A DNA stretch of 64,000 nt from Streptomyces acidiscabies. Its GTDB lineage: Bacteria > Actinomycetota > Actinomycetes > Streptomycetales > Streptomycetaceae. Position 1 is the stretch's first letter, and every line of letters begins with the position of its first letter. This document shows positions 12,131-18,666 of the stretch, in pieces. The stretch lies in the NCBI RefSeq assembly GCF_020010905.1, contig NZ_JAGJBY010000002.1, positions 4,216,001 to 4,280,000 on the forward strand, in the 5' to 3' direction. A program made the position numbers and the translations under genes. The notes below the pieces were generated by a model. That model was given only the letters and a program-made list of their open reading frames with translations, searched no databases and was not told the origin of the DNA.

Positions 12131-13069
12131 CTACGGGACGATCGACCGAGCCGTGCGGACGAACGCGTCATGCAGATCCCGCGCCGCCTGAGGCGCCGCC
12201 TCCGCCCGACGCCGCCGCAACATCAGCAGCACCTGCGGCGTACGCCCCTCCAGCGGCCGGTACGTGATCGCCCCCAGCCGCGAGCGCAGCGAATGGGGGT
12301 CCCCCCGGCCGAAGGCTGGGGGAGGATCCCCTACGACGCTGAACTCCGGCAGCACCGTCACCCCGAGCCCCTCCGCGACCATCAGCTTCCCCATCTCCGC
12401 CCCGTCCGTGGAGTACGAGAACGACGGCCCGCTCCCCCCGAGCAGCCGATGGACGTAGCGGTGCATGACGTACCCCGACCGCATCCCGATCAACGGCACC
12501 TCCGCCAGCTCCCGCACCCCGACCGCCTCCCGCGACACCAGCGGACAGCCGGGATGCATCACCACGACCGGCCGCCCCCGCAGCAACTCCGTCGACGCGA
12601 ACTCGGCCGGCATGTCGTCCCCTTCGAGATGGTTGACGAGCCCGAGGTCGAACCCCCCTTCCAGCAGGGCCCGTTGGACGTCGGACTGCTGCGCCCCCAC
12701 CCCCTCGACCTGCGTCAGCGGATGGGCCCGCCGGAACTCCCGCACGGTGGGGATCAGCAGCGGCACGGTCGCCGCGTTGACCGTCCCGACCCGCACCATC
12801 CGGCTGATCCGATGCTGCTCACCGGCAGCCGACCGCAGCCGGTCGACCGCGTCCAGCACCCCGATGATGTGCGGCAGCAGCTCCCGCCCGGACGCGCTCA
12901 TCGTCGCCCCCGACCGCTTGCGCTCCAGCAGATCGACCCCGAGCTCCCGCTCCAGATTCCGCACCGTCTCGCTCAACGCGGGCTGGGAGAGCCGCAGTTC
13001 CTCGGCGGCCCGGCGCAGCGAGCCGAGCCGGGTGACCGCCGCGATGTATTCGAGCTGTTCCGTCCGCAT
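12131..13069 (-). CDS. LysR-family regulator, probable regulator of the sulfone operon
   Basis: A 312-residue LysR-type transcription factor. The winged helix-turn-helix at the N-terminus includes RRAAEELRLSQPALSETVRNLE near residues 19-40. An effector-binding domain covers about residues 90-290. It is divergent from the sulfone/sulfonate operon starting at 13208, the arrangement typical of LysR control of a neighbouring operon, so I infer it senses sulfur status or a pathway intermediate. Oddly, about a dozen residues (PPPAFGRGDPHS, near 248-260) are encoded by a palindromic repeat inserted in frame between conserved motifs (VTVLPEFSVV and GAITYRPL). The TTCGTGAA stretch at 13124-13131 lies in the shared promoter region and could be part of its operator. 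Confidence 0.82.
   Translation of the reverse strand: MRTEQLEYIAAVTRLGSLRRAAEELRLSQPALSETVRNLERELGVDLLERKRSGATMSASGRELLPHIIGVLDAVDRLRSAAGEQHRISRMVRVGTVNAATVPLLIPTVREFRRAHPLTQVEGVGAQQSDVQRALLEGGFDLGLVNHLEGDDMPAEFASTELLRGRPVVVMHPGCPLVSREAVGVRELAEVPLIGMRSGYVMHRYVHRLLGGSGPSFSYSTDGAEMGKLMVAEGLGVTVLPEFSVVGDPPPAFGRGDPHSLRSRLGAITYRPLEGRTPQVLLMLRRRRAEAAPQAARDLHDAFVRTARSIVP
12295..12331. repeat. REP-like palindromic element inside the LysR coding sequence
   Basis: The element runs from GGGGGTCCCCCC through GGCCGAAGGC to TGGGGGAGGATCCCC. Inner arms CCCCGGCC/GGCTGGGG close on a GAAG loop, and outer GGGGTCC/GGATCCCC arms extend the stem imperfectly. I recall near-identical palindromes scattered in Streptomyces genomes. 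Here it sits in frame in a gene and adds a dozen residues without breaking translation. Confidence 0.65.
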
Positions 13070-13170
13070 GACCGGCAGAATGCGGGCCGATTCCCGCCGC
13101 GTTCAAGGGTTTCCCTGTCACACCTTCGTGAAATTCAATGGTCCGCGATCCGAGACCGGTCGGGTTCTCC

Positions 13171-13200
13171 TTGACGGCCCCGACGGACGGCTGTCACGAT
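13171..13200 (+). promoter_or_regulatory. Promoter of the sulfur operon leader
   Basis: TTGACG (13171-13176) and CACGAT (13195-13200) are separated by 18 bases and make a plausible vegetative promoter. The expected start of transcription 7-8 bases after the second hexamer coincides with the ATG of the leader peptide at 13208, so the transcript would be leaderless. Confidence 0.55.
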
Positions 13201-13207
13201 CGACGGC

Positions 13208-13291
13208 ATGAAGATGCGACTGGACCTCACGCGGCGACGCCATGTCGACCTCGCGCGCGTCTCCAGCGCCTCCTGTCGCGCCGCGGCCTGA
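13208..13291 (+). CDS. Putative leader peptide of sulfur-assimilation operon
   Basis: A 27-residue peptide with the pattern LTRRRHVDLARVSSASC followed by Arg and three Ala. The same pattern (LTRR.H.DL.RV.SA.C) is known to me from short actinobacterial leader peptides placed in front of sulfur-metabolism genes. The single Cys codon near the end would let ribosomes sense cysteine-tRNA supply, by analogy with the leaderless Cys-rich upstream frames described in mycobacteria. The stop at 13291 lies 115 bases before the sfnG start. The peptide probably has no function beyond controlling the downstream operon. The ATG at 13208 has no ribosome site, which fits leaderless initiation. Confidence 0.75.
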   Translation: MKMRLDLTRRRHVDLARVSSASCRAAA

Positions 13292-13406
13292 TCGACTCCC
13301 CGCAGATCCGCCGCAGTTCCCTTTCCTGAAGCCTGAATTCCCCGCGCCTTTCGCGCCCCCTGAATTCGGCATGCCTGAAAACGCTTCCCCGCCACAGGAG
13401 TTCCGC

Positions 13407-14495
13407 GTGCCCGCACCCGTGAAATTCGCCTACTGGGTCCCCAACGTCAGCGGTGGACTCGTCACCAGTTCCATCGAACAACGCACCGACTGGAGTTACG
13501 ACTACAACCGCGAACTCGCCGTACTCGCCGAGAACAACGGCTTCGAGTACGCCCTCAGCCAGGTCCGCTACATGGCCAGCTACGGCGCCGAGTTCCAGCA
13601 CGAGTCCACCAGCTTCTCCCTCGCCCTGCTCCTCGCCACCGAGCGCCTGAAGGTCATCGCCGCCGTCCACCCCGGCCTGTGGCACCCCGGCGTCCTCGCC
13701 AAACTCGGCGCCACCGCCGACCACTTGTCCCAAGGCCGGTTCGCCGTCAACGTCGTATCCGGCTGGTTCAAGGGCGAGTTCACCGCCCTCGGCGAACCCT
13801 GGCTGGAGCACGACGAGCGCTACCGGCGCGCCGAGGAGTTCATCACCGCGCTGCGCCGGATCTGGACCGAGGACCACACCGAACTCGCCGGAGACTTCTA
13901 CCGGTTGAGGGACTTCACGCTCAAGCCGAAGCCGCTCAACACGCCCGAGCGCCCGCACCCGGAGATCTTCCAGGGCGGCAACTCCACCGCCGCCCGCGCG
14001 ATGGCCGGCCGGGTCTCCGACTGGTACTTCTCCAACGGCAAGGACTTCGACGGCGTCACCGAGCAGATCGAGGACGTCCGCAAGTCCGCAGCCGAAGTCG
14101 GCCGCAGCGCACCGAAGTTCGGCCTCAACGGCTTCCTCATCGCCCGCGACACCGAGGCCGAGGCCCGCGACACCCTGCACGAGATCGTCGCCAAGGCCGA
14201 CCGCGAAGCCGTAGAGGGATTCGGCGCGGCCGTGAAACAGGCCGGACAGTCCACCGCCGACAAGAAAGGCATGTGGCAGGACTCCACCTTCGAGGACCTG
14301 GTCCAGTACAACGACGGCTTCCGCACCGGCCTGATCGGCACCCCCGAGCAGATCGCCGAGCGGATCGTCGCCTACAAGAAGCTCGGCGTCGACCTCTTCC
14401 TCCTCGGCTTCCTCCACTACCACGAGGAGGTCGAGTACTTCGGCAAGAAGGTGCTCCCGCTGGTGCGCGACCTCGAAGCCCAGCAGACCGCCTGA
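13407..14495 (+). CDS. sfnG: FMNH2-dependent dimethyl sulfone monooxygenase SfnG
   Basis: A 362-residue luciferase-like (LLM) flavin-dependent monooxygenase that oxidises dimethyl sulfone to methanesulfinate and formaldehyde using FMNH2 from a partner reductase. SfnG-type features are VKFAYWVPNVSGGLVTS at the N-terminus, GRFAVNVVSGWFKGEF near residue 110 and YFSNGKDFDGV near residue 205. The LIGTPEQIAERIVAYK and LLGFLHYHEEVEYFG segments near the end also fit. The frame is open further upstream, but AGGAG ends 6 bases before the GTG at 13407, and the resulting length matches the family. It is the first enzyme gene after the leader peptide and heads a compact operon whose msuE product can supply its reduced flavin. 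Confidence 0.88.
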   Translation: MPAPVKFAYWVPNVSGGLVTSSIEQRTDWSYDYNRELAVLAENNGFEYALSQVRYMASYGAEFQHESTSFSLALLLATERLKVIAAVHPGLWHPGVLAKLGATADHLSQGRFAVNVVSGWFKGEFTALGEPWLEHDERYRRAEEFITALRRIWTEDHTELAGDFYRLRDFTLKPKPLNTPERPHPEIFQGGNSTAARAMAGRVSDWYFSNGKDFDGVTEQIEDVRKSAAEVGRSAPKFGLNGFLIARDTEAEARDTLHEIVAKADREAVEGFGAAVKQAGQSTADKKGMWQDSTFEDLVQYNDGFRTGLIGTPEQIAERIVAYKKLGVDLFLLGFLHYHEEVEYFGKKVLPLVRDLEAQQTA

Positions 14496-14531: not shown

Positions 14532-15737
14532 ATGAGCACCGCAACCCGCTGGACCACCACCCCCGCCACCGCCGAGGAATGGATCGCCCGCGCCGCCGAG
14601 GCCGCCGCCGTTCTCGCCACCGACGCCGCCGCCCGCGACAAGGCCGGCGCCACCCCGCACGCCGAAGTGCGCCTCCTCAAGGACGCCGGCCTCGTCACCC
14701 TGCTCGGCCCCACGGAGCACGGCGGCGCGGGCCAGGACTGGCCGACCGCCTACCGCGCCGTCCGCGAGATCGCCAAGGCCGACGGCTCCATCGGCCAGCT
14801 CCTCGGCTACCACTACCTGTGGTTCTGGGCCGCCCGCCTGGTCGGCACCCGCGAGCAGTGGCAGCGCCTGGAGGCCGAGGCCACCCGCGAGGCGTGGTTC
14901 TTCGGCGGCGCCGTCAACCCCCGCGACCACGACGTGACGGTCACCGAGGACGGCGACGACCTCGTCTTCACCGGCGCCAAGACCTTCTCCACCGGCAGCA
15001 GGGTCTCCGACGTCACGGTCCTCGAAGGCGTCCTGGACGGCACGGAGTTGCACGTCTTCGCCGTCGTCCCGTCCGCGAGCCGGGGCCTGACCTTCCACGA
15101 CGACTGGGACAACATCGGCCAGCGCCTCACCGAGTCCGGCAGCGTCACCATCGACGCGGTCCGCGCCCCCTGGACCGACGCGCTCGGCTACGTCGGCAAG
15201 GAGTTCCGGCCGCGCACGTACAACACCCTCAACGTCCCGACCATCCAACTCGTCTTCGCCAACTTCTACTTGGGCATCGCGGCCGGCGCCCTGGAGACCG
15301 CCGCGACCTACACGCGCACCAAGTCCCGCTCCTGGCTGCACGGCGGCCACGACCGCGCGGTCGACGAGCCGTACGTCATCGACGTCTACGGCGATCTCAC
15401 CGCGAAGCTCTGGGCGGCCGAGGCGCTCGCCGACGCGGTCGCCCTGGAGGGGCAGCGGCTGCACGACGACCCCGACGCGGTCACCCCCGAGACGCGCGGC
15501 GCGTTCGAGGTACGGGTCGCGGCGGTCAAGGCGCGCGCCACGGACGTCGCCCTGGAGGCCACGAACCGCATCTTCGAGGTCACCGGCGCGCGGGCGACCG
15601 CCGCCTCCGAGGGCCTGGACCGGTTCTGGCGCAACGTCCGCACCCACACCCTCCACGACCCCGTCGCCTACAAGCGCCGCGAGGTCGGCCGCTGGGTCCT
15701 GGACGCCGAACTCCCCGAACCGACCTGGTACTCCTGA
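14532..15737 (+). CDS. Acyl-CoA dehydrogenase-fold monooxygenase (MsuC/DszC-like)
   Basis: A 401-residue flavin enzyme with the acyl-CoA dehydrogenase fold but related to the FMNH2-dependent monooxygenases DszC and MsuC. It has the N-terminal helical domain (residues 1-120, LGYHYLWFWAARLVG), the beta-barrel (FTGAKTFSTGSRVSD near 148, FHDDWDNIGQRLTESG near 190) and the C-terminal helices ending RTHTLHDPVAYKRREVGRWVL, which are hallmarks of the DszC/SfnB branch. In this setting the likely reaction is methanesulfinate to methanesulfonate, bridging SfnG and SsuD; this is an inference. It lies 36 bases after sfnG, with GAAAGG before its ATG. Confidence 0.8.
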   Translation: MSTATRWTTTPATAEEWIARAAEAAAVLATDAAARDKAGATPHAEVRLLKDAGLVTLLGPTEHGGAGQDWPTAYRAVREIAKADGSIGQLLGYHYLWFWAARLVGTREQWQRLEAEATREAWFFGGAVNPRDHDVTVTEDGDDLVFTGAKTFSTGSRVSDVTVLEGVLDGTELHVFAVVPSASRGLTFHDDWDNIGQRLTESGSVTIDAVRAPWTDALGYVGKEFRPRTYNTLNVPTIQLVFANFYLGIAAGALETAATYTRTKSRSWLHGGHDRAVDEPYVIDVYGDLTAKLWAAEALADAVALEGQRLHDDPDAVTPETRGAFEVRVAAVKARATDVALEATNRIFEVTGARATAASEGLDRFWRNVRTHTLHDPVAYKRREVGRWVLDAELPEPTWYS

Positions 15738-15763: not shown

Positions 15764-16318
15764 ATGGCCACCGTCCTGTCCGTCTCCGGCAGCCCCTCCC
15801 CCTCCTCCCGCACCGGCCGCCTCCTGCGCCACCTCGACCAGCGTCTCACCGCGCACGGCCACCGCGTCATCCCCCTCGACGTCCGCACGATCCCCGCCGA
15901 GGCGCTCCTCGGCGCCGACTTCCAGCACCCCGCGATCGTCGAGGCCACCGACCTCTTCGCGAGCGCCGACGGCGTCGTCATCGGCACGCCGATCTACAAG
16001 GCGTCCTACTCCGGCGTCCTCAAGTCCCTCCTCGACCTGCTCCCGCAGTACGCGCTCACCGGCAAGACCGTCCTCCCCCTCGCGACCGGCGGCTCCACCG
16101 CGCACGTCCTCGCCCTGGACTACGCGCTGCGTCCCGTCCTCAATTCGATGGGCGCCGCGCACATCGTGCAGGGCTGGTTCACCCTCGACAAGGACATCAC
16201 CGCCCACGACGACGGCACGGTCACCGTTGCCCCCGCCTCCGCCGAGGCCCTCGCGCAGATCGTCGACCAGTTCTCGGCCGCCCTCGGCCGCACCCCGTAC
16301 CTGGCGGCGGCGAGCTGA
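15764..16318 (+). CDS. msuE: NADPH-dependent FMN reductase MsuE/SsuE family
   Basis: A 184-residue flavodoxin-fold FMN reductase. It opens with ATVLSVSGSPSPSSRTG, the phosphate-binding loop of the family, and has GVVIGTPIYKASYSGVLKSLLDLL near residues 66-88, the usual SsuE/MsuE motif. TVLPLATGGSTAHVLALDYAL follows near residue 105. It provides FMNH2 to the monooxygenases encoded on both sides, which have no reductase domain of their own. AAAGAGG lies 7 bases before the ATG. Its stop overlaps the next start by one base (TGATG), indicating translational coupling with sfnB. Confidence 0.88.
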   Translation: MATVLSVSGSPSPSSRTGRLLRHLDQRLTAHGHRVIPLDVRTIPAEALLGADFQHPAIVEATDLFASADGVVIGTPIYKASYSGVLKSLLDLLPQYALTGKTVLPLATGGSTAHVLALDYALRPVLNSMGAAHIVQGWFTLDKDITAHDDGTVTVAPASAEALAQIVDQFSAALGRTPYLAAAS

Positions 16319-17502
16319 TGACAGCGCACGTGATCGCCGACGCCGCCGAGGCGCTCACGGTCGCGCGGGCGCTCGCGGACGAATTCCGTCCGGACGCCTC
16401 CGTGCGCGACCGTGAACGCCGCCTGCCCCGCGCCGAGTTGGACCGCCTCTCGGACTCGGGCCTGCTCGCCGTCACCGTCCCCGCCGGCCACGGCGGCGCC
16501 GACGTCGACGCGGTGACCCTCGCCGAGATCTTCCGCCTCCTCGCCACCGCAGACGGCAGCCTCGCGCAGATCCCGCAGAGCCACTTCGTCTACGTCAACG
16601 TCATCCGCCGCCAAGGCACCGAGCAGCAGCGGAAGTTCTTCTACGACGAGATCCTCGCCGGCCGCCGCCTCGGCAACGCCCAGTCCGAGGCCGGCACGAA
16701 GCACGTCCAGGACATCCGCGCCCGCCTCGACCGCCGACCCGACGGCTCGTACACCCTCACCGGCACCAAGAACTACTCCACCGGCGCCCTGTTCGCCCAC
16801 TGGATCCCGGTCCTGGCCCGCGCCGAGGACGACAAGCTGTACGTCGCGTACGTCCCCGCCGGCGCACCCGGCGTGACGATCGACGACGACTGGGACGGCC
16901 TCGGCCAGCGCACGACCGCCAGCGGAACCGTCCACCTGGACGCCGTACCCGTCCCGGCGGACCGCGTCTTCCCGCACCACCTCACCTTCGAGGGCCCTCA
17001 ACTCCACGGCGCCGTCGCCCAGTTGCTGCACGCCGCCATCGACGCCGGGATCGCGGGCGGCGCGCTCGCCGAAGCCGTCGACTTCGTGCGGACCAAGAGT
17101 CGGCCCTGGTTCGAGAGCGGATACGAGACGGCCGCCGAAGACCCCCTGCTGATCCAGCGGTTCGGGGAACTGGCGATCCAAGTCCGCGCCTCCGACGCCC
17201 TGTTGAAGGAAGCGGCACGCGCGGTCGACGCGGCGCGTGCCGAGTTGACCGACGACACCGCCGCCGAGGCGTCGATCGCGGTCGCCGCCGCGAAGGTGAC
17301 CGCCGCACAGGCCGCCGTCGATGTCGCCGCCGCCCTCTTCGAGGTCTCCGGCACCCGTTCCGCCCTCAACTCCCTCAACCTGCACCGGCATTGGCGCGAC
17401 GCCCGCACCCACACGCTGCACGACCCGACGCGCTGGAAGGTGCAGCACATCGGCCGGTACGTGCTGGGTGGCACCCGGCCGCCCCGCCACGGCCTGCTCT
17501 GA
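16318..17502 (+). CDS. sfnB: SfnB family sulfur-acquisition oxidoreductase
   Basis: A 394-residue acyl-CoA-dehydrogenase-like protein of the SfnB family, required in pseudomonads for growth on dimethyl sulfone. The N-terminal helical region precedes DGSLAQIPQSHFVYVNVIRR near residues 80-100. The middle barrel carries LTGTKNYSTGALFAHW near residue 145 and DDDWDGLGQRTTASGTV near residue 190. The C-terminal RTHTLHDPTRWKVQHIGRYVLG is the DszC/SfnB signature. It is paralogous to the protein at 14532, so the operon holds two members of this branch with presumably different substrates. The ATG overlaps the msuE stop. The precise reaction is unknown. Confidence 0.85.
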   Translation: MTAHVIADAAEALTVARALADEFRPDASVRDRERRLPRAELDRLSDSGLLAVTVPAGHGGADVDAVTLAEIFRLLATADGSLAQIPQSHFVYVNVIRRQGTEQQRKFFYDEILAGRRLGNAQSEAGTKHVQDIRARLDRRPDGSYTLTGTKNYSTGALFAHWIPVLARAEDDKLYVAYVPAGAPGVTIDDDWDGLGQRTTASGTVHLDAVPVPADRVFPHHLTFEGPQLHGAVAQLLHAAIDAGIAGGALAEAVDFVRTKSRPWFESGYETAAEDPLLIQRFGELAIQVRASDALLKEAARAVDAARAELTDDTAAEASIAVAAAKVTAAQAAVDVAAALFEVSGTRSALNSLNLHRHWRDARTHTLHDPTRWKVQHIGRYVLGGTRPPRHGLL

Positions 17503-17520: not shown

Positions 17521-18666
17521 ATGTCGTCCCTGACCTTCCACTGGTTCCTCCCGACCAACGGCGACAGCCGCCATGTCGTCGGCGGCGGCCACGGCACCCC
17601 GGCGACCGCCTCCGGACGCGACCGGCCGCCCACGGTCGGCTATCTGAGCCAGATCGCCCGCGCGGCCGAAGACCTGGGGTTCGTGGGCGCGTTGACCCCG
17701 ACCGGCGCGTGGTGCGAGGACGCGTGGCTCACCACGGCCATGGTCAGCCAGCACACCGAGCGGCTGAAGTTCCTCGTCGCCTTCCGGCCCGGGTTCGTCT
17801 CGCCGACGCTCGCCGCGCAGATGGCGTCCACGTTCCAGCGGCAGACCGGGGGGCGGCTCCTGCTCAACGTCGTGACGGGCGGGGAGAGTCACGAGCAGCG
17901 GGCGTACGGGGACTTCCTCGGCAAGGACGACCGGTACCGGCGCACCGGTGAATTCCTCGACGTCGTACGGGGGTTGTGGGAGGGGAAGTCCGTCGACCTG
18001 AAGGGGGAGCATCTGCGGGTCGAGGACGCGAAGCTGGCGCGCCTTCCCGATCCGGTGCCCGAGGTGTACTTCGGCGGGTCCTCACCGATCGCCGGGGAGA
18101 TCGCCGCCAAGTACGTGGACGTGTACCTCACTTGGGGCGAGCCGCCGGCGCAGGTCGCGGAGAAGATCGCCTGGATCAAGGGGCTCGCCGCGCGGCACGG
18201 CCGTACGCTGCGGTTCGGGATCCGGCTGCACGTCATCACGCGCGACACGTCCGAGGCGGCCTGGGCGGAGGCGGACCGCCTGCTCGCCGGATTCGACCCC
18301 GAGACGGTCGAGTCCGTCCAGGCGGGGCTGGCGAAGAGCGAGTCCGAGGGGCAGCGCCGGATGCTCGAACTGCACGGCGGCGACCGCAACGGGCTGGAGA
18401 TCCACCCCGGCCTCTGGGCCGGCATCGGCCTCGTACGGGGCGGCGCGGGGACGGCCCTCGTCGGCTCCCACGAAGAAGTCGCCGCCCTCATCAAGGAGTA
18501 CGCGGCCCTCGGCATCGAGGAGTTCGTCCTCTCCGGCTACCCGCACCTGGAGGAGGCGTACTGGTTCGGCGAGGGCGTCCTCCCGAAGCTCGCGGAGGAC
18601 GGCCTGTGGACCCACCCCGCAGGGACGGCACAGACCCCTTCGGCTCAGGTGCCGTTCACCTCCTGA
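17521..18666 (+). CDS. ssuD: FMNH2-dependent alkanesulfonate monooxygenase SsuD
   Basis: A 381-residue LLM-family enzyme that desulfonates alkanesulfonates to sulfite and an aldehyde using FMNH2 and oxygen. SsuD-type motifs are FHWFLPTNGDSR at the N-terminus, the active-site region ALTPTGAWCEDAW near residue 60, RPGFVSPTLAAQMAS near 92, and LLNVVTGGE near 117. A conserved late segment reads FVLSGYPHLEEAYWFGEGVLP near 340. It completes the route from dimethyl sulfone to sulfite set out by the upstream genes. The ribosome site GAGGAG lies 7 bases before the ATG. No SsuABC transporter genes follow; the next gene is convergent, 10 bases away. Confidence 0.9.
   Translation: MSSLTFHWFLPTNGDSRHVVGGGHGTPATASGRDRPPTVGYLSQIARAAEDLGFVGALTPTGAWCEDAWLTTAMVSQHTERLKFLVAFRPGFVSPTLAAQMASTFQRQTGGRLLLNVVTGGESHEQRAYGDFLGKDDRYRRTGEFLDVVRGLWEGKSVDLKGEHLRVEDAKLARLPDPVPEVYFGGSSPIAGEIAAKYVDVYLTWGEPPAQVAEKIAWIKGLAARHGRTLRFGIRLHVITRDTSEAAWAEADRLLAGFDPETVESVQAGLAKSESEGQRRMLELHGGDRNGLEIHPGLWAGIGLVRGGAGTALVGSHEEVAALIKEYAALGIEEFVLSGYPHLEEAYWFGEGVLPKLAEDGLWTHPAGTAQTPSAQVPFTS

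Follow-up and report, generated by a model that had tools for sequence, protein, structure and literature searches.

We propose that a 27-codon ORF, MKMRLDLTRRRHVDLARVSSASCRAAA, located upstream of the dimethylsulfone monooxygenase gene sfnG, acts as a leaderless upstream ORF which responds to cysteine and would control the translation of sfnG, a reading to which we give a probability of roughly 0.6. That the ORF is real and under selection is almost certain, and it probably responds to cysteine; concealment of the sfnG SD by the end of the leader is, judging from the modelled folds, somewhat favoured as the principal step here. The locus belongs to a genome of 11.0 Mb, and "the window" denotes the whole 64-kb stretch of DNA that was analysed.

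Leader ORF, promoter and operon

The leader ORF occupies 13208-13291 of the forward strand, on which all features described below lie unless stated otherwise, and terminates with TGA (13289-13291), 115 nt before the GTG start codon of sfnG at 13407. Its product matches the NCBIfam family NF042934 ("putative leader peptide") with 32 bits (curated cut-off 27). A Pfam scan of the peptide returned no match, and a riboswitch or other RNA family was rejected on an Rfam scan of the window, which gave no match at the gathering score.

SfnG (13407-14495) is identified by TIGR04021 with 632 bits (cut-off 383). It is followed by a DszC/SfnB-like flavin monooxygenase (14532-15737; best NCBIfam match NF043015, 303.5 bits, below the cut-off of 850), an SsuE-type NADPH-dependent FMN reductase (15764-16318; TIGR03567, 227.5 bits, cut-off 164), an SfnB family sulfur acquisition oxidoreductase (16318-17502; TIGR04022, 560.9 bits, cut-off 430.9) and an SsuD-like alkanesulfonate monooxygenase (17521-18666; NF001939 with 465.5 bits and TIGR03565 with 457.2 bits, both below their cut-offs of 510 and 518.2). 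A LysR-type regulator gene is divergently oriented on the reverse strand (12131-13069); it matches LysR families, none of the 25 matches listed out of 48 reaching its own cut-off. The sfnG frame is open upstream as far as an ATG at 13242, within the leader, and a gene caller could choose that start. This longer sfnG was rejected: the SD and the start at 13407 are conserved, and an in-frame stop occurs at most 40 codons upstream in 54 of 87 loci.

The leader ATG (13208) is preceded, at a distance of 7 nt, by the -10 element CACGAT (13195-13200), which an 18-nt spacer separates from the -35 element TTGACG (13171-13176). In an alignment of 75 sfnG loci, from which 10 of 85 sfnG leaders were omitted for having no ATG at the expected place, each base of TTGAC is kept in 69-70 loci and the final A and T of the -10 element in 69 and 71, respectively, at fixed positions before the leader ATG, the bases ahead of that A and T being more variable. 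We base the promoter claim on this conservation rather than on a sigma-70 consensus scan, which found no promoter at the leader start because CACGAT agrees with the consensus at only three of six positions. Just 5' of the -35 element (about 13160-13170) a TCGGG...TCC stretch is also conserved in the aligned sfnG loci, and is perhaps a regulator site. What most supports a leaderless start, on sequence grounds, is the fixed spacing between promoter and ATG. The initial annotation had placed a leader of this length, starting where transcription should begin, in front of a sulfone operon; its coordinates and the nature of the operon are confirmed, and the leaderless start is probable, the distance between promoter and ATG being kept in most of the aligned loci.

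Association of the leader with sfnG

We collected 110 sfnG loci, 80 of them named (the closest relatives by rank) and 30 from the genus, the latter taken from 36 genomes having sfnG; 88 of the 110 are from Streptomycetaceae. The nearest named relatives are Streptomyces, with S. niveiscabiei at the top (97% protein identity). An NF042934-type leader is situated upstream of sfnG in all 88 Streptomycetaceae loci, 66 having been found by pattern and 22 by HMM (13 of the latter in loci stored in reverse orientation). The link to sulfone use is therefore the rule in this family among the loci examined, contrary to the earlier statement that such leaders are seldom connected with dimethyl sulfone. 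Leaders of 85 loci were re-read (L051, L077 and L121 being the remaining three), 78 of which are distinct once duplicates between the two collections are discounted; in these, the gap between leader and sfnG ranges from 109 to 264 nt.

Among the 22 sfnG loci outside Streptomycetaceae, two from Nocardia have a weak upstream candidate (9.2 and 20.1 bits), and 16 have no leader at the HMM threshold in the DNA examined. In four of six Actinomadura loci (L097, L101, L102 and L103) a leader is found 3' of sfnG, about +1106 to +1123 from the start of the sfnG match. A plasmid search yielded five records, all with 60-80% identity and matching the sfnG part only.

A leader family in front of sulfur genes

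At E ≤0.0001, NF042934 was detected in all 31 genomes of the genus, in 79 of the 118 class genomes (the cut-off being exceeded in 78) and in none of 14 control genomes; at E 10, 10 of the 14 controls gave matches, none over the cut-off. The host genome has nine matches over the cut-off. From their translations, we take the genes that follow these leaders to be a cysteine dioxygenase-like gene, two LLM monooxygenases, sulfite reductase, alkanesulfonate monooxygenase, sfnG, a sulfonate ABC permease and rhodanese. The gene behind leader L019, which has no Cys at the end of the motif, is presumably glutathione-transferase-like, and below the cut-off there is, among others, a leader in front of what appears from the translations to be a CysO/CysM-like pair. 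The leader of this pair (L022, C1:1799215) ends in ATC TGA, and leaders of similar motif in other genomes read ATC TGT; in L022 the conserved Cys codon has been swapped for a stop. In two class genomes, two leaders are located close together on opposite strands (G169:C251:3248-3485 and G216:C172:14727-14898).

For comparison within the family, 100 hand-picked regions of genus and class matches were joined with the loci already at hand. From these 173 loci, L201 (no match) and L154, L186, L189, L200 and L248 (low-scoring wrong matches) were dropped, which left 167 loci, 153 of them distinct and 147 with a Cys at the end of the motif. Those without it are L019, L022, L025 (Cys one codon later, TGT), L303, L304 and L305.

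The motif R..[HA]VDLxR....C is common to the studied leader and NF042934, a family classed as cis_reg_atten. The one-line description of NF042934 names no mechanism, whereas for the studied leader a target, sfnG, can be given and a helix that hides its SD is predicted. Similarity to two Cys-rich leader families, Ms4527A (NF042936, 25.3 bits) and Ms5788A (NF042933, 24.4 bits), is weak, and with scores under the cut-off of 45 bits that applies to both, the leader is a member of neither.

An invariant UGU at the end of the motif

The motif ends with codon 23 (13274-13276), the Cys codon that we consider regulatory. It is TGT in the window and in every one of the 147 distinct family leaders having Cys there. 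Other Cys codons of the family leaders are TGT in 12 of 122 cases within the motif and 18 of 66 in the tail, and the baseline in 34 ORFs of the window is 15 of 124. Taken separately, the sfnG leaders have TGT at the motif end in 87 of 87 parsed cases and in the three others, compared with 28 of their 82 other Cys codons. Exact tests on the use of TGT return very small values, which are descriptive only, the leaders being related. The base 3' of the motif-end UGU is nearly always a pyrimidine (C in 118 of the 147 leaders, T in 21).

Four amino acids of the motif are nearly or fully invariant, R4 in 152, D8 in 153, L9 in 146 and R11 in 153 of the 153 distinct leaders, with codons that vary (D8 is GAC in 118 and GAT in 35, and R11 has five codons). 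Sixteen peptides were seen more than once; seven of these carry synonymous differences at D8, and in all sixteen the Cys codon is constant. Fixed residues with variable codons, next to a fixed UGU, therefore indicate selection on the peptide at some sites and on the codon at one. This bears on the supposition that the divergent LysR regulator alone controls the operon and that the leader ORF is a translated, non-regulatory relic. The divergent LysR gene and the conserved TCGGG...TCC ahead of the -35 element would suit such an arrangement; however, leaders of different host genes and leaders across the class keep both the amino-acid motif and one codon, which is not expected of a relic, and we regard this alternative as very improbable.

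One tRNA-Cys gene was found, with anticodon GCA, among the loci scanned around 30 of 77 tRNA matches, so UGU and UGC are likely read by one tRNA. We infer that UGU is decoded more slowly, through wobble. If the leader merely counted Cys codons, UGC should do equally well, since the GCA tRNA would read both. Retention of UGU throughout the family for the sake of pairing with the SD was rejected, because sfnG clades with the SD GCCAGGAG or CCGGGAG offer no ACA partner.

An arrest peptide acting through its nascent chain is expected to conserve amino acids while its synonymous sites vary freely, and the family shows this pattern. In E. coli, the short leader tnaC senses free tryptophan via its nascent peptide. 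The studied leader resembles tnaC in being short with conserved residues, and a control of the Rho type, as in tnaC, is conceivable for it. Perhaps, although we hold this to be rather doubtful, the family acts as a cysteine sensor that is specific for one codon and works by nascent-peptide arrest, and it would coordinate sulfur scavenging across Actinomycetes: the nascent R..[HA][VIM]DLxR would slow the ribosome, and the single UGU, as opposed to UGC, would sense a shortage of Cys-tRNA with no need of a run of hungry codons.

Pairing of the leader end with the SD of sfnG

The regulatory Cys codon is located inside the putative anti-SD arm CTCCTGTCGCG (13270-13280), which is complementary at 10 of 11 positions, with one C-C mismatch, to CGCCACAGGAG (13390-13400), the arm that contains the SD of sfnG, AGGAG (13396-13400); the two constitute inverted repeat I2. 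Folding of the whole leader gives a minimum-energy structure in which 13270-13280 is paired with 13390-13400 and which overall is not unusual (z -1.26). In the clade of the studied locus, a register test of the helix with 44 distinct arm pairs found 422 of 484 cells (87%) paired, as against 31-55% when the helix was slid by 1-3 positions, a control that favours the arm-SD helix, since this was derived from the same sequences. At one position of the helix, four distinct arm pairs have C-G in place of T-A, two of the four lying in helices that are broken elsewhere, and the same position is mismatched as C-A in six arm pairs and as C-C in two, those of the window and of S. niveiscabiei. Over 76 distinct sfnG leaders the arm-SD duplex has a mean energy of -16.9 kcal/mol, compared to -14.6 for the synonymous null, and 35% of the leaders reach p ≤0.05; swapping arms and SDs between sfnG loci weakened the duplex only from -16.9 to -15.4.

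For the window, the computed probability of an open sfnG SD rises from 0.0055 when the leader is free to 0.078 when it is masked through UGU, and none of 12 synonymous versions of the leader was as closed as the native one. For 43 leaders of the window's clade, mean SD accessibility is 0.072 in the native and 0.129 in the synonymous sequences, the native being lower in 36. With a ribosome placed at UGU, as compared with 30 nt upstream, the SD in these leaders is 18-fold more open (median), and masking through UGU raises its opening at least 3-fold in 32 and lowers it at least 3-fold in two. In 35 sfnG leaders of other clades, this masking has little effect (median ratio 1.01; four up, three down), and the native SD is less open than in the synonymous versions in 24. 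The absolute change in SD opening is small over the 78 sfnG leaders, exceeding 0.2 as a rise in nine and as a fall in five.

SD hiding was rejected as a rule for the whole family, as duplex energies give no support and folds support it only weakly. Family-wide, the arm-SD duplex equals the synonymous null (-14.43 versus -14.40; 137 leaders with uncertain starts), and of 106 leaders with an assigned start, 26 showed an SD opened at least 3-fold by masking and one an SD closed by it, the others being unchanged by this measure; a downstream start could not be assigned for 55 of the 161 leaders. A different helix of similar design is encountered in the LWRRVH group, whose representative in the host genome (L012) precedes what, from its translation, we take to be a cysteine dioxygenase gene. 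Twelve of the 20 leaders in this group have both the tail CCGTCCTG and the SD region CAGGACGG. When starts were assigned in a motif-free manner (n=11), the native SD was less open than in the synonymous versions in nine, and masking opened it at least 3-fold in nine and closed it in none; among the 18 of 20 leaders holding CAGGACGG, a restriction that favours pairing and makes the motif-free test the freer one, the native SD was less open in 15 and masking opened it at least 3-fold in 14. In these models, the pairing between arm and SD thus suits the window's clade and the LWRRVH group but does not extend to the family at large.

When the leader is omitted from the fold, GACTCC (13294-13299), directly 3' of the leader stop, pairs with the SD. 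With this second possible anti-SD, a stalled ribosome need not fully free the SD of sfnG. Even with the leader masked, most of the SD remains paired at minimum energy, and only the centroid leaves it open.

Control of transcription or of translation

The initial annotation had suggested cysteine-dependent attenuation, with alternative hairpins in 13292-13406 as a possible switch. A cysteine-dependent mechanism that involves the ribosome remains the best reading, and control at the start of translation is more likely than classical transcription attenuation, because the informative pairing is one between the leader end and the SD of sfnG. The classical mechanism would call for an antiterminator and an intrinsic terminator hairpin within 13292-13406. 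A hairpin whose arms read GAATTC does occur at about 13335-13367, but the region folds no better than shuffled sequences (z -0.22), and 13208-13406 contains no terminator-like site, the two reported sites both being 5' of the leader. On these grounds, attenuation by an intrinsic terminator was rejected and the proposed hairpin switch was not supported; we find this mechanism scarcely credible here.

Rho-dependent transcription attenuation, for which E. coli tnaC provides a precedent, would operate differently. When cysteine is ample the ribosome would leave the leader, exposing a C-rich spacer on which Rho could stop transcription before sfnG, and when cysteine is short a ribosome stalled at UGU would shield the beginning of the spacer. 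The spacer (13292-13395) is C-rich and G-poor (46 C and 20 G in 104 nt) and may be a Rho loading site. Its C-G skew is 0.39, the mean of 80 sfnG spacers is 0.28, and in the first 60 nt after the stop the skew is 0.29 in 77 leaders of the genus Streptomyces and 0.21 in 84 leaders of other genera, with lower values in controls (0.04 in 25 regions of the window and 0.07 in 122 locus regions). The spacer being devoid of a terminator-like site and the location of UGU 2-4 codons ahead of the stop in 119 of 161 family leaders are likewise compatible with Rho. A role of Rho at the cys leaders of mycobacteria was suggested by Seliverstov et al. (2005, PMC1262725), who described their own prediction as rather weak. 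An excess of C over G is, however, not specific to Rho, the control regions may contain untranscribed DNA, and the 22 upstream regions of sfnG outside Streptomycetaceae are also partly skewed (mean 0.13, six at 0.25-0.34). Moreover, Rho leaves the complementarity between arm and SD unexplained. We consider it unlikely as the mechanism at this locus; SD hiding and Rho could also operate together.

Proposed mechanism

That the ORF exists, belongs to its family and is conserved, that the promoter keeps its spacing, that the two arms are complementary and that UGU is fixed are all properties read directly from the sequences. On the mechanism that we prefer, hiding of the SD, the transcript would start at or beside the AUG and ribosomes would load straight onto the leader. 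With ample Cys-tRNA, the ribosome would clear the UGU codon 23 and exit at the stop, whereupon 13270-13280 would pair with 13390-13400 and hide the SD of sfnG. With scarce Cys-tRNA, the ribosome would wait at UGU and cover 13270-13280, the SD would be freed and the sulfone-scavenging operon translated. Translation of the leader, stalling at UGU upon cysteine shortage and the direction of control are what we infer from these properties.

Comparison with known systems

The closest parallel is provided by mycobacteria, whose polycysteine leaderless short ORFs are reportedly the subject of a study by Canestrari et al. in Molecular Microbiology in 2020. The likeness to the leader of sfnG consists in a short ORF, probably leaderless in the case of sfnG, Cys codons and a sulfur operon downstream. 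The mycobacterial leaders have a run of Cys codons, whereas the window leader has one and its putative target is sfnG; many of its relatives upstream of sfnG have two or more consecutive Cys codons. Cysteine-rich leaderless uORFs were proposed as attenuators in mycobacteria in 2015 (PMC4633059, as excerpted), and the excerpts of later papers credit Canestrari et al. (2020) with showing cysteine-dependent (translation) attenuation in mycobacteria (PMC9031893, PMC9094748, PMC13236596). A survey of Streptomyces lividans describes eight attenuator leaders, none labelled cysteine-dependent in the portion consulted (PMC8079986). The uORFC-8-2 motif, which precedes cysS in Rhodobacterales, is, in the section of the report available, a cysteine-codon attenuator with two tandem Cys codons, mostly UGC, and a U run fitting an intrinsic terminator (PMC8632094); the sfnG leader, in contrast, has a single UGU and no terminator-like site. 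A literature search recognised no paper on the link between leader and sfnG or on the invariant UGU among the matches listed, most subscription journals being outside its range.

The leader is marked by its single UGU, by a predicted helix that would hide the SD and includes the Cys codon, and by the general link with sfnG in Streptomyces. That UGU never varies while other synonymous sites do so freely speaks pointedly against the plain counting of Cys codons. The scavenging of dimethyl sulfone in Streptomyces is under a probable cysteine-sensing leader that is common to other sulfur genes, and the supply of sulfur may largely respond directly to the speed of the ribosome at a single codon.
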